The translations under genes were made by a program, and so were the position numbers. The notes below the pieces were generated by a model. That model saw only the letters and a list, made by a program, of their open reading frames with translations, searched no databases and was not told where the DNA came from. 32,345 nucleotides of DNA from an uncultured Clostridia bacterium (GTDB lineage Bacteria > Bacillota > Clostridia > Lachnospirales > Lachnospiraceae), in assembly GCA_946624325.1 (NCBI GenBank), contig CAMOSC010000009.1:1-32345 (forward strand). Direction: 5' to 3'. This document shows positions 2,538-26,442 of this stretch, piece by piece. Each line of letters starts with the position of its first letter. The first letter of the stretch is position 1.

Positions 2538-3173
2538 ATGACGGAACTCTCTATCAATGATTTTCTGTCCCGGCTTTCTTCCGGAGCACCCGTTCCCGGA
2601 GGAGGAGCGGCCGCTGCCCTGGCGGGAGCAATCGGGGCGGGTCTGGGCGGCATGGTGTGCAGCCTGACCGCGGGAAAGAAAAAGTACGCCGCCTATGAGA
2701 CGGATATCAAGAGGCTGGCGGCCTCCATGGAAGAACTGCGGTCGGGTCTTGCCGGGCTGATGCGGAAGGATGCCGAGGCCTTTGAACCCCTTGCCGGTCT
2801 GTACAAGGTGAAGAGCTGCTCTTCGCCGGAGGAGGAACGGGCGCTTGAAATCCGGAAGGAGCAGGCGCTGGCCGGGGCCTGTGCGGTGCCCCTGGAGGTG
2901 CTTCGTCTCTCATGCCGCTGTCTGGAAGGCCTGGAAGAACTTGAACGGAAGGGCTCGGTACTTGCCTGCAGCGATGTGGGCGCCGGGGCTTCCCTGGCAG
3001 CGGCAGCGGCTCAGGCAAGCTTCCTGAATGTCCTCATCAACACGAAAGCCATGAAGGACCGGGAGACGGCATCACGCATGCAGGGGGAAGGAGAAGCACT
3101 TCTGAAATCTGCGAATGATACTGCCGGGCGGATTTACGCAAGGGTAACGGACCGGCTTGCTCCGGGAAACTAA
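2538..3173 (+). CDS. Cyclodeaminase/cyclohydrolase family protein (formimino-THF cyclodeaminase / methenyl-THF cyclohydrolase FchA-like)
   Basis: N-terminus MTELSINDFLSRLSSGAPVPGGGAAAALAGAIGAGLGGMVCSLT is characteristic of the family; adjacent to folD. Confidence 0.88.
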   Translation: MTELSINDFLSRLSSGAPVPGGGAAAALAGAIGAGLGGMVCSLTAGKKKYAAYETDIKRLAASMEELRSGLAGLMRKDAEAFEPLAGLYKVKSCSSPEEERALEIRKEQALAGACAVPLEVLRLSCRCLEGLEELERKGSVLACSDVGAGASLAAAAAQASFLNVLINTKAMKDRETASRMQGEGEALLKSANDTAGRIYARVTDRLAPGN

Positions 3174-3178
3174 CCTGC

Positions 3179-3350
3179 ATGCTGCGCGGTACAGGATACA
3201 CAGGCCTCAGCGGGGGTAGTTTCGGGAGTAATTCGCATGCCTCGCGGCGCAGGATACACAGGCTCCACGCGGGGCTGTTTCGGAATAACCTGTATGCCCG
3301 GCGGCGCAGGTTACACACAGGCCTCCTGGGGAGGCCTTTTCAGAGTAAAG
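3179..3350 (+). repeat. Three imperfect tandem copies of a ~57-58 bp unit upstream of folD
   Basis: Units begin at 3179, 3237 and 3294: atgctgcgcggtacaggatacacaggc / atgcctcgcggcgcaggatacacaggc / atgcccggcggcgcaggttacacacagg. Confidence 0.8.
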
Positions 3351-4263: not shown

Positions 4264-4368
4264 GGGGAGGAGACATATTTTGCCCACGGCTGCGCCTTTT
4301 CAGGCGTGGCTGCAAAATAGTCATCCGTGGACATAAGGTCAAAGTGCGAAACTACGTTTCGGGAGGAG
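4264..4368 (+). repeat. SD-flanked intergenic element, copy A (upstream of dut)
   Basis: ggggaggagacatattttgcccacggctgcgcc...ggcgtggctgcaaaatagtcatccgtggacataaggtcaaagtgcgaaactacgtttcgggaggag; nearly identical to 26339-26442 and partly to 15952-16110. Confidence 0.88.
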
Positions 4369-4375
4369 AAGGAAA

Positions 4376-4816
4376 TTGGAGACAGAACGTATTCAGGTCC
4401 GGTACCTGAGCGACCGGATTGAAAGACTGGCTTATATCGGCGGCAAATCCGACTGGGTGGATCTGCGCGCGGCGGAAGAGGTCCGTATGAAGGCGGGCGA
4501 ATACCGCCTGATTCCGCTGGGCGTTGCCATGAAGCTTCCGGAAGGATATGAGGCGCATATCGTCCCGCGCAGCAGTACCTTTAAAAATTTCGGGCTGATC
4601 CAGACGAATCACATGGGCGTGGTAGATCAGTCCTATTGCGGGGATAACGACCAGTGGTATTTTTCGGCCTACGCGCTTCGCGATACCGAAATCCATGTCA
4701 ATGACCGGATCTGCCAGTTCAGGATCATGAGGAACCAGCCGCAGCTGTGCTTTGAGGAGACGGAGCATCTCTCGGATGTTGACCGGGGCGGTTTCGGGTC
4801 CACCGGGAGAAGCTGA
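4376..4816 (+). CDS. dut: dUTP diphosphatase (dUTPase), TTG start
   Basis: ORF starting TTG after ggaggagaagg; motifs [76 protein letters not shown]. Confidence 0.9.
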
Positions 4817-4953: not shown

Positions 4954-5105
4954 TACCTGTTCAGAGCCAGACTCCAGAAATGGCGAAACGATGCCGTTTC
5001 TGGAGCTGCGGCGTGCTCGCCAGATGCAAATCTGAGCGAAAACATGGATTTCGGCCAGCTGAATCCATGCGTCCGCACAGATCTGCGCCTGGCTCTGAAC
5101 AGGTA
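4954..5105. repeat. MITE-like cruciform element, full copy 1
   Basis: Perfect 17-bp terminal inverted repeats TACCTGTTCAGAGCCAG (4954-4970) / CTGGCTCTGAACAGGTA (5089-5105); internal hairpin ctccagaaatggc/gccgtttctggag and a second arm. Confidence 0.88.
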
Positions 5106-5115
5106 CATGCAAACA

Positions 5116-5198: not shown

Positions 5199-6401
5199 TT
5201 ACTCCGCCTCGGGCTGGGAATAAGCCGCGATGTCAATATCCGCGATATTGAGAATCTGGACTTCTCCGGAGAGGTTTTCATAGAGGTAAAGGAGCGTATA
5301 GTGCGGAACGGCGTTCGGTACCACGGGGGTTGTGACGCACAGGAAGCAGTGGTTTTTACCGGCAACTATCTGGCTGCCAAGGTATGCGACCGGCTGGTAA
5401 TCGGCTCCCAAGAGGGTGGAGAGGGCGGCATCCAGCAGATGCTGGCGCTCCTCGTCGATCTCAAAACGCTCGGGTATGCTCCATCCGCCGAGGACGCCTC
5501 CGAATCCGGCAGGCGCCGGCTCGACGGCTTCTTCCGTCATCAGCTCCTCTTCCGTGACAGGCTCTTCTTCCGTTATCAGTTCTTTTTCCGTGACCGGTTC
5601 TTCTTCCGTCATCGCTTCCTCTTCCGTGATCGGTTCTTCCTCCGTGGCGAGCTCTGAGAGCGCGGCCGGATCAAAGACCATAGTACCGGTCACCTCCGCC
5701 TCTTTGCCATCGGGACTTTCAAATATATAAACAAGATAATAGGAAGGCTCTGCGCCGGGATAGACCGTACGCGCCTGGGACAGGAAGCAGTGCCTGGTAC
5801 CGGCAACAACCTGGGACGCAAGGTGGGCAACGGGCATGTAATCTACGCCGAGAAGCATTCCGGTGGTGCGCTCAAAAAGGTCCGTGAGTTCTTCGGTCAG
5901 CTCGGCGGAATCATCTGCCTGCCATCCGCCCATGAGGAGCTCGTCAGCGGTTTTCGGAATCTCTTCGGGAATATATTCACCGCCCTCCGCCAGATTCGAC
6001 ATACCGGCGATATCCAGGTCGGTGATGCCCAGAACCGAGGTGTTTCCCTGCAGATCCTCATAGATGGAAACGACTGTATAGTAGGGAATCGAACCGGGAT
6101 AGACCAGGCTGGCACGCGCCAGGAAACAGTAGTTTTTCCCTGCAACCAGCTGACTTCCCAGGAAGGCAACCGGCTCATAGGAGACACCCATCAGCCTTGC
6201 CATGGTATCCTGGAACAGTTCAGATAGTTCTTCGGGTATTTCCGGATTTTCGGAAACCTGCCATCCGCCCGCAAGCTGCGGGGTCTCGGTAAAATCCGCC
6301 GGTTCTGAGGCGGTTTCCCCGGGCTCCTGCGCATAAACTGCGGATATTCCGGACAGCATCAGGACTGTGGAAAGTGCAATCAGTCTTTTCTTCAGCTTCA
6401 T
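5199..6401 (-). CDS. Secreted protein with three cystatin/stefin-like domains
   Basis: Signal peptide MKLKKRLIALSTVLMLSGISAVYA; three ~85-aa repeats GGW..-Y.PVA.L.SQ[LVI]VAG..[YH]CFL...-[YH]Y..[VL].[IL][YF]E; strong SD aaggaggtttgt upstream. Confidence 0.75.
   Translation of the reverse strand: MKLKKRLIALSTVLMLSGISAVYAQEPGETASEPADFTETPQLAGGWQVSENPEIPEELSELFQDTMARLMGVSYEPVAFLGSQLVAGKNYCFLARASLVYPGSIPYYTVVSIYEDLQGNTSVLGITDLDIAGMSNLAEGGEYIPEEIPKTADELLMGGWQADDSAELTEELTDLFERTTGMLLGVDYMPVAHLASQVVAGTRHCFLSQARTVYPGAEPSYYLVYIFESPDGKEAEVTGTMVFDPAALSELATEEEPITEEEAMTEEEPVTEKELITEEEPVTEEELMTEEAVEPAPAGFGGVLGGWSIPERFEIDEERQHLLDAALSTLLGADYQPVAYLGSQIVAGKNHCFLCVTTPVVPNAVPHYTLLYLYENLSGEVQILNIADIDIAAYSQPEAE
5530..5655 (-). 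repeat. 18-bp coding minisatellite, seven degenerate units, encoding a TEEE[PAL]x hexapeptide linker
   Basis: Units tcttccgtcatcagctcc / tcttccgtgacaggctct / tcttccgttatcagttct / ttttccgtgaccggttct / tcttccgtcatcgcttcc / tcttccgtgatcggttct / tcctccgtggcgagctct on + strand. Confidence 0.9.
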
Positions 6402-6447
6402 ACAAACCTCCTTAACGATTCTGAAGGAAACGCAAATGATTTCTTTC

Positions 6448-6812: not shown

Positions 6813-8552
6813 GTGAAAGAATTACTGATCGGTAATGCCGCCGTAGCGCGGGGATTGTATGAAGCCGGATGCGGGTTCGTATCCAGCTATCCGGGAACGC
6901 CCAGCACGGAGATCACGGAGTTTGCGGCGAAATATGATGAGATTGTCTGCGAATGGGCGCCGAACGAAAAGGTAGCGCTGGAGGCCGCCTTCGGGGCATC
7001 CCTCGGTGGGATGCGGGCTGCATGCTGCATGAAGCATGTGGGACTGAATGTTGCGGCTGATCCGCTTTTCACGCTTTCCTATACCGGGGTGACGGGCGGA
7101 GTTGTCGTCTGCGTGGCGGATGACCCGGGCATGCATTCCTCCCAGAATGAACAGGATTCCAGGAATTATGCGCGTGCCGCAAAGCTTCCGATGCTGGAGC
7201 CGGCGGATTCGATGGAGTGCCTGGAATTCGCCAAAACGGCTTTCGCGCTTTCCGAGCAGTTTGACACGCCGGTGCTTCTGCGCACCTGTACCAGGATAGC
7301 CCATTCCCAGAGCATCGTTGAGACGTCCGCGCGCACGGAATGCCCCGTTAAACCCTATGAAAAGCATCCGGAAAAATATATCATGATGCCCGCCTATGCA
7401 AAGAAAAGGCATCCGTTTGTCGAAGAGAGGACGGAGAGGCTTTCGGAGTATGCGGAAACGGCGTCTTTCAACCGGGAAGAGTTTTACGACGATAAAATCG
7501 GTATTATCACTTCCGGAACCGCTTATCAGTATGTGCGTGAAGCATTCGGGGAGTCGGTCAGCGTCCTGAAGCTGGGGATGGTTTATCCGCTCCCGGAGAA
7601 AAAAATCCGGGCATTTGCGGCAAAGGTACAGAAGCTGTATGTCGTAGAGGAGCTGGATCCGTTCCTGGAAAATGCCGTGCGGGCTTTGGGAATCGAGGTT
7701 ACGGGAAAGGCGCTTTTCTCCATGCTGGGCGAATTCTCGCAGAAAACCGTCCGGGAAGTCTTCGGTCTGGAGAATCCGGAAGCCGGGAAGCTGTCCCGTG
7801 AGATTCCGGCCCGTCCGCCCATGATGTGCGCCGGCTGTCCGCACCGCGGGATGTTCTATGCCATGGCAAAGAAGAAGCTCACGGTACTCGGTGATATCGG
7901 CTGCTATACTCTCGGAGCCCAGGCACCGCTGTCCGCGCTGGACAGCACACTCTGCATGGGCGCTTCCGTTTCGGGGCTGCACGGCTTCAATAAGGCCCGC
8001 AGAGCCGAGGCGGAAGGAAAGAGCGTTGCGGTGATCGGAGATTCCACCTTTATCCATTCGGGTGTTACCGGTCTGATCAATATAGCTTATAATGCCTCCA
8101 ATTCCACGGTGGTTATCCTGGACAATTCCATCACGGGCATGACGGGTCATCAGCAGAATCCGACTACAGGCTACAATATAAAAGGGGATCCCGCCGCAAA
8201 GATTGATCTGGAAACGCTCTGCCGCGCGGTCGGAATCAACCGTGTCCGGGTTGTAGATCCCTATGACCTGAAAGCCTGCGAGGATGCGCTTACGGAGGAG
8301 CTTGCCGCTCCGGAACCCTCCGTGATTATCTCCAGGAGGCCGTGCGTACTGCTCAAGTATGTCAGGCCGAAAACTCCGCTGCACGTTTCCCGGGAAGATT
8401 GCAGGGGCTGTAAAAAGTGCATGAAATTCGGGTGCCCGGCTATCAGCTTCCGGGACGGAAAAGCGCAGATTGACCGCACGCTTTGCGTAGGCTGCGAGGT
8501 CTGCAGCCAGATCTGCCCGTTTGGCGCGTTTGTAAAGGAGGGAGAGGCATGA
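6813..8552 (+). CDS. iorA: Indolepyruvate ferredoxin oxidoreductase alpha subunit (GTG start)
   Basis: MKELLIGNAAVARGLYEAGCGFVSSYPGTPSTEI; TPP region GDSTFIHSGVTGLINIAYNASNSTVVILDNSITGMTGHQQNP; C-terminal CRGCKKCMKFGCP and CVGCEVCSQICP iron-sulfur motifs. Confidence 0.95.
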   Translation: MKELLIGNAAVARGLYEAGCGFVSSYPGTPSTEITEFAAKYDEIVCEWAPNEKVALEAAFGASLGGMRAACCMKHVGLNVAADPLFTLSYTGVTGGVVVCVADDPGMHSSQNEQDSRNYARAAKLPMLEPADSMECLEFAKTAFALSEQFDTPVLLRTCTRIAHSQSIVETSARTECPVKPYEKHPEKYIMMPAYAKKRHPFVEERTERLSEYAETASFNREEFYDDKIGIITSGTAYQYVREAFGESVSVLKLGMVYPLPEKKIRAFAAKVQKLYVVEELDPFLENAVRALGIEVTGKALFSMLGEFSQKTVREVFGLENPEAGKLSREIPARPPMMCAGCPHRGMFYAMAKKKLTVLGDIGCYTLGAQAPLSALDSTLCMGASVSGLHGFNKARRAEAEGKSVAVIGDSTFIHSGVTGLINIAYNASNSTVVILDNSITGMTGHQQNPTTGYNIKGDPAAKIDLETLCRAVGINRVRVVDPYDLKACEDALTEELAAPEPSVIISRRPCVLLKYVRPKTPLHVSREDCRGCKKCMKFGCPAISFRDGKAQIDRTLCVGCEVCSQICPFGAFVKEGEA

Positions 8553-9130: not shown

Positions 9131-9200
9131 ATCGATGGGCGGGCGGGAGCTTTTCCCGCGGCGTACCGCTGTTGCAGTAGTAAGGATTTTTCGGTAGCAT

Positions 9201-9353
9201 GTTACTGTTCAGAGCCAGGCGCAACTCTGTGGAGAATCACGGATTCCGCTGGCGGAAATCCGTGATTCTCCGCAGAGTTGCATCTGGCGAGCACGCCACA
9301 ACTCCAGAAATGGCTGCTTTCGCCATTTCTGGAGTCTGGATCTGAACAGTAAC
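9201..9353. repeat. MITE-like cruciform element, full copy 2 (inverted relative to copy 1)
   Basis: gttactgttcagagccag ... ctggatctgaacagtaac terminal inverted repeats (1 mismatch); internal hairpins gcaactctgtggagaatcacggattccgc/... and aactccagaaatggc/gccatttctggag. Confidence 0.9.
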
Positions 9354-15951: not shown

Positions 15952-16110
15952 GGGAGGAGACATATTTTGCCCACGGCGGAACTTTTGTCCACGACAGAAC
16001 TTTTGCCCACAGCGGAACTTTTGCCACGGCGGAAATTTAGCCGGTTGTGGCTGCAAAACAGTCATCTACGGCCATCAGGTTCAAGTACAAAACGGTGTTC
16101 TGAGAGGAGG
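15952..16110 (+). repeat. SD-flanked intergenic element, copy C with internal 18-bp tandem expansion (upstream of acpP)
   Basis: gggaggagacatattttgcccacggc ... ggttgtggctgcaaaacagtcatctacggccatcaggttcaagtacaaaacggtgttctgagaggagg; tandem units at 15965-16035. Confidence 0.85.
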
Positions 16111-26188: not shown

Positions 26189-26338
26189 AAAGGGCTGTGG
26201 GAATCTTTTTCGGGACTGCGGCGTCCGGGCATACGAAATAAAAAGAAAAGGATACAAAAGCTGTTGCATGTGCGCCGGACTGCCGATATACTGTAACCGA
26301 TTGTCATAATGCTTCCTGCAAAGCAGGCCCGGGACATT

Positions 26339-26442
26339 TGAGGAGACATATTTTGCCCACGGCTGCGCTTTTTGCAGGCGTGGCTGCAAAATAGTCATCC
26401 GTAGCCATTAGGTCAAAGTACAAAACTCCGTTTAGGGAGGGG
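26339..26442 (+). repeat. SD-flanked intergenic element, copy B (upstream of P-loop kinase)
   Basis: gaggagacatattttgcccacggctgcgctttttgcaggcgtggctgcaaaatagtcatccgtagccattaggtcaaagtacaaaactccgtttagggagggg; near-identical to copy A. Confidence 0.88.

Follow-up and report, generated by a model that had tools for sequence, protein, structure and literature searches.

A protein of three tandem stefin-like domains in a Clostridia genome, a likely secreted inhibitor of papain-family proteases

The minus-strand gene at 5199-6401 of the window (the whole 32,345-nt stretch of DNA analysed here) encodes three tandem stefin-like cystatin domains behind a signal peptide recognized by eye. We consider it quite probable that the product is a secreted, soluble protein in which each domain most likely inhibits a papain-family (C1) cysteine protease, with targets that probably lie outside the cell. 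Animals and plants use the cystatin fold to block papain-like proteases. The cystatin identity of the three modules is well supported by sequence profiles and by predicted structure, and residues at the three sites where cystatins contact their proteases are among the best conserved of the domain.

Three cystatin domains in one reading frame

The first-pass annotation had proposed a secreted protein at this position, and the reading frame bears this out by its length, its ATG start, its AAGGAGG ribosome-binding site and its signal peptide, read by eye (Table 1). The signal peptide ends in ...SAVYA|Q, which by eye is a type-I site without a lipobox, and the AlphaFold2 (AF2) model places a helix inside it at residues 6-15. 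It is a lone gene, flanked by two plus-strand genes named by eye, one dUTPase-like (ending at 4816) and one indolepyruvate oxidoreductase-like (starting at 6813), and a search of its own genome returned only itself as a full-length match. Its GC content of 56.2% equals that of the window and housekeeping genes surround it, so contamination or foreign DNA was rejected; a phage origin was likewise rejected, as a phage search returned no relatives.

Table 1. Features of the three-domain gene, in window coordinates
Feature	Position	Strand	Basis and remarks
Three-domain stefin-like protein gene	5199..6401	minus	400 aa, stop included; ATG start, strong Shine-Dalgarno sequence
Ribosome-binding site AAGGAGG	6407..6413	minus	5 nt upstream of ATG; read from sequence
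Signal peptide, residues 1-24	6330..6401	minus	Cleavage after VYA; by eye from translation
Cystatin-like domain 1, residues about 44-132	6006..6272	minus	Profile A1 E 4.2e-35 (A1 includes domain 1); AF2 helix 57-67, strands 73-86, 88-99, 107-115, 121-128
QLVAG first-hairpin loop, domain 1	6138..6152	minus	Sequence; between-strand break in model
Cystatin-like domain 2, residues about 157-246	5664..5933	minus	Profile A1 E 4.1e-33; AF2 helix 170-180, strands 188-198, 202-210, 221-228, 235-243
QVVAG first-hairpin loop, domain 2	5799..5813	minus	Sequence; falls between strands 188-198 and 202-210
Cystatin-like domain 3, residues about 304-392	5226..5489	minus	Profile A1 E 2.4e-37; AF2; Foldseek
QIVAG first-hairpin loop, domain 3	5358..5372	minus	Sequence; model strand break at its Ala
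Acidic low-complexity spacer TEEEPxTEEELx, domains 2-3	5528..5646	minus	TRF; direct repeats D1; low pLDDT

The three homologous modules of about 90 aa start at residues 44, 157 and 304, and each contains GGW, a helix and the motif QxVAG-x-N/R-[YH]. Their homology, claimed earlier from the translation, is confirmed by local alignment of the module pairs, which scores 191-243 where shuffled sequences average about 26 (z 34-46). The first-hairpin motifs that had been quoted (SQLVAGKNYC, SQVVAGTRHC and SQIVAGKNHC) are all present, while the accompanying statement that one Cys follows the loop in each module applies to modules 1 and 2 but not to module 3, which has two (HCFLC). The spacer between domains 2 and 3 is encoded by an 18/36-bp tandem repeat detected by TRF. 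In a domain tree, domains 1 and 2 group most closely with one another (support 0.88), and domain 3 branches deeper. Based on this branching, the third copy probably arose by lineage-specific duplication, and the triplication is most likely independent of that in eukaryotic multicystatins, as judged from a tree that held no eukaryotic domains.

We found that profiles built from the related domains recover cystatins. At their cut-offs, no Pfam or NCBIfam model matched the protein, and direct hmmscan and phmmer searches with the full-length sequence returned only noise. The anticipated assignment to PF00031 was therefore obtained only in part: the protein does not reach the curated cut-off, whereas among 30 relatives no Pfam model scores better than PF00031, at a sub-threshold E of 0.018. 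When searched against the PDB, a set of 177,635 sequences of which cystatins are a tiny fraction, profile A1 (14 domains) returned 22 matches, the best 15 of them cystatins or stefins (best E 0.0035). With profile A3 (30 domains), the top seven matches were all cystatins and 18 of the 27 matches carried cystatin or stefin names, although the single-match E-values behind the assignment are modest (best 0.0006). In a phmmer search with a single domain of one relative, cystatin A/stefin A were the only matches (E 0.14-0.19). Chagasin-type inhibitors (I42, Ig-like inhibitors of C1 proteases) gave no Pfam match, and the fold is that of a cystatin by Foldseek.

The predicted structure agrees with this assignment. 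The AF2 model of domain 3 (13-sequence alignment; mean pLDDT 88.1, pTM 0.78) has a helix at 17-27 and strands at 33-46, 48-59, 67-75 and 81-89, which make up an antiparallel sheet of four strands. The first strand gives way to the second at the Ala of QIVAG, which is thus the tip of the first hairpin. The first-pass annotation had staked its family call on such a helix and sheet, and the model contains both, with QxVAG at the hairpin tip. In the full-length model, the helix and four strands recur in each module and the best match is a phytocystatin; its pLDDT of 59.6 probably reflects the thin alignment and disordered spacers, and we used only its per-module elements. A Foldseek search of the PDB with domain 3 gave five best matches that were all cystatins (probability 1.00, TM 0.54-0.61). 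The modules could instead share an unrelated alpha+beta fold, of the NTF2/ketosteroid-isomerase or AroH chorismate mutase type, and carry QVVAG by chance; profile A3 has a weak AroH match (E 0.01), and Foldseek lists ketosteroid-isomerase-like proteins with probabilities up to 0.85. However, every better-scoring match is a cystatin, AroH is absent from Foldseek's 50 best, and the ketosteroid-isomerase-like matches have TM values of only about 0.32-0.37, whereas the top cystatins reach 0.54-0.61. We rejected both folds, since cystatins score better by profile and by Foldseek, and regard a chance resemblance as highly improbable. The family call made earlier is thus sustained, with cystatins, family I25 of MEROPS clan IH, as the best matches both by structure and by profile.

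Relatives and known cystatins

Relatives occur in rumen and gut metagenome-assembled genomes (MAGs) of Solobacterium, Oscillospiraceae, Ruminococcaceae and other Bacillota, in Planctomycetaceae MAGs as a two-module form, and on plasmids of Aureibacter and Persicobacter. Matches were present in 4 of 41 near relatives (the window's own genome counted), in 12 of 391 genomes of the class, or about 3% of that sample, and in 3 of 399 genomes of the phylum. Most relatives are two-module lipoproteins or secreted proteins; others are single-module lipoproteins (L054, L055) or single-module proteins that measure about 90-110 aa and lack a signal peptide (L058-L062). The protein studied here is the sole three-module form among the relatives found, and it lacks the lipobox Cys that most of them carry.

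The relatives' gene neighbourhoods contain no widely shared neighbour and no protease gene conserved alongside, and a protease-inhibitor operon was rejected on the former ground. L002 and L054 both have an anti-sigma-like gene nearby, L004 and L053 have one large open reading frame in common, and local synteny is seen in a few close-relative pairs (L005/L051 and L060/L061). In L053 (1-3397), a mobilisation-like gene and a gene for a resolvase-like recombinase, both identified by eye, stand immediately upstream of the two-module relative, an arrangement suggesting that this relative was transferred by a mobile element.

Among characterized families, the modules most resemble stefins, or type-1 cystatins (MEROPS I25A; stefin A, 1dvc/1gd4), in their domain of about 90 aa, N-terminal GG, helix and predicted fold, in the QVVAGTNY first hairpin and probably the LxG second hairpin, and in needing no disulfide pair. 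Each module has one or two Cys just after the loop and no C-terminal Cys pairs, and so lacks the two disulfides of type-2 cystatins. Unlike classical stefins, which are single domains without a signal peptide, the protein combines a signal peptide with three domains. The family also departs from stefins in its G-G-W, in the Cys after the loop and in falling below the PF00031 cut-off, and where stefins have an SLPG turn it mostly has [DN]L[SQED]G.

Bacterial stefins, including those of Clostridium, were described in 2009 by Kordis and Turk (PMC2784779). The present proteins belong to the same superfamily, share the class Clostridia and have a similarly patchy distribution, but are tandem and either exported or lipid-anchored; the single-domain relatives L059-L061, likened by description, look like the 2009 proteins. 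Polaribacter EAQ42446 is also bacterial and carries a triplicated cystatin domain, although it belongs to another phylum and to the cystatin rather than the stefin lineage and is fused to another gene (PMC2784779; compared by description only). Eukaryotic multicystatins, such as potato multicystatin and the kininogens, likewise hold several inhibitory cystatin domains per chain. Consequently, exported multi-domain stefins in gut Clostridia are new, whereas bacterial stefins as such have been known since 2009. A search of the open-access literature found no experimental or biochemical study of exported tandem stefins. Functions for bacterial cystatins were no more than proposals in 2009. Neither Pfam nor NCBIfam annotates the present group, whose members recur among rumen and gut genomes, are exported and would be easy to express and assay.

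Contact-site conservation and possible targets

In stefin-papain complexes, cystatins contact C1 proteases through three segments: the N-terminal Gly, the first hairpin and the second hairpin. Across 30 related domains, QxVxG ranks first of 86 five-residue windows for conservation and is strictly kept in 26 of the 30. The least variable positions, in module numbering, are G45, Q41, N47, G76 (second hairpin), W4, P34 and G2; apart from P34, each of the seven falls within or next to one of the three contact segments. The N-terminal GGW, GSW, GAW or GGY is found in 25 of the 30 domains, with GGW in all three modules of the window protein. The second-hairpin contact is PW in type-2 cystatins and LPG-like in stefins; in the present domains, the Gly of LxG is strongly conserved, and there is no conserved Pro or Trp; affinity may therefore differ from that of the eukaryotic proteins.

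From this conservation we infer that the three-domain protein likely inhibits C1 proteases. Each domain would act as a reversible, substrate-like plug in the active-site cleft, composed of the N-terminal Gly segment, the QxVAG first hairpin and the LxG turn of the second hairpin. The tandem copies could hold several enzymes per molecule, or could have diverged in target from one another. The enzymes blocked would most likely be extracellular. They could be cathepsins, from ciliate predators or the animal host, or else papain-like peptidases that neighbouring bacteria or the organism itself secrete. Some proteins with a cystatin fold, such as monellin, are not inhibitors of C1 proteases, and the modules might likewise be binding or structural surface modules, a reading favoured by the lack of conservation at second-hairpin (L2) contact residues other than Gly. 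A bare scaffold, however, could vary at QxVxG, here the most conserved part of the domain, and would not be expected to keep its contact positions. Conservation thus favours inhibition, and we think a purely non-inhibitory role improbable.

If inhibition is assumed, its target could be the organism's own secreted papain-like peptidases rather than those of others. The genome does encode two C1A peptidases, at C15:20762-21415 and C135:4716-5426, with a transmembrane segment or signal peptide by eye. C1A genes are also found more often where the inhibitor is present (7 of 15 genomes) than where it is absent (36 of 190, class sample; Fisher p 0.019, uncorrected for kinship), and they occur in 4 of 6 inhibitor genomes within the class sample itself (p 0.017, likewise uncorrected). 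However, eight of the 15 inhibitor-bearing genomes have no C1A match, so self-control is not a general role; moreover, none of the five other genomes of the same family for which the class sample lists C1A has an inhibitor match, and the inhibitor gene and the genome's own C1A genes are not neighbours. We therefore judge an internal function unlikely, though worth weighing. Eukaryotic cathepsins, from ciliates grazing on rumen bacteria or from the animal host, are a serious candidate to which we would give somewhat less than an even chance. The named relatives come mostly from rumen and gut MAGs, besides the two-module Planctomycetes ones; the rumen ciliate Entodinium strongly expresses C1A cathepsins that are proposed to digest engulfed microbes (PMC6925433); and eukaryotic proteases are the targets that Kordis and Turk suggested for bacterial stefins (PMC2784779). 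Against this, some relatives are small and lack a signal peptide (L058-L062), and others occur in Aureibacter and Persicobacter. More speculatively, and with probability on the low side, the exported or lipid-anchored tandem stefins of rumen and gut Clostridia might shield the cell against digestion by ciliate or host cathepsins. Blocking such cathepsins would explain resistance of gut bacteria to grazing or host proteolysis, and a shield of this kind would amount to a bacterial defence against predation, based on a fold familiar chiefly from eukaryotes.

Repeats and other features of the window

At 734-2524, 3-5 kb away from the stefin-like gene, is a gene whose product was recognized by eye as a secreted M28-like aminopeptidase that has an SH3-like region and is anchored in the membrane at its C terminus. 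A dispersed repeat of about 150 bp has one copy at 4957-5107, immediately beyond the 3′ end of the stefin-like gene, and another at 9197-9349. Its consensus has perfect 18-bp inverted ends, GTTACTGTTCAGAGCCAG...CTGGCTCTGAACAGTAAC. The repeat is predicted to form a hairpin with a three-way junction, at -82 kcal/mol for the plus strand and -86 kcal/mol for the minus strand. The genome holds at least 40 copies, 79-90% identical, among which compensatory changes seem to occur when judged by eye; Rfam gave no match, and the element is MITE- or REP-like. A second dispersed intergenic element, with the common core GAGGAGACATATTTTGCCCACGGC, occurs at 4265-4366, 15952-16107 and 26338-26440. Finally, a 58-bp tandem repeat of 2.6 copies occupies 3171-3317, between a cyclodeaminase-like and a folD-like gene.
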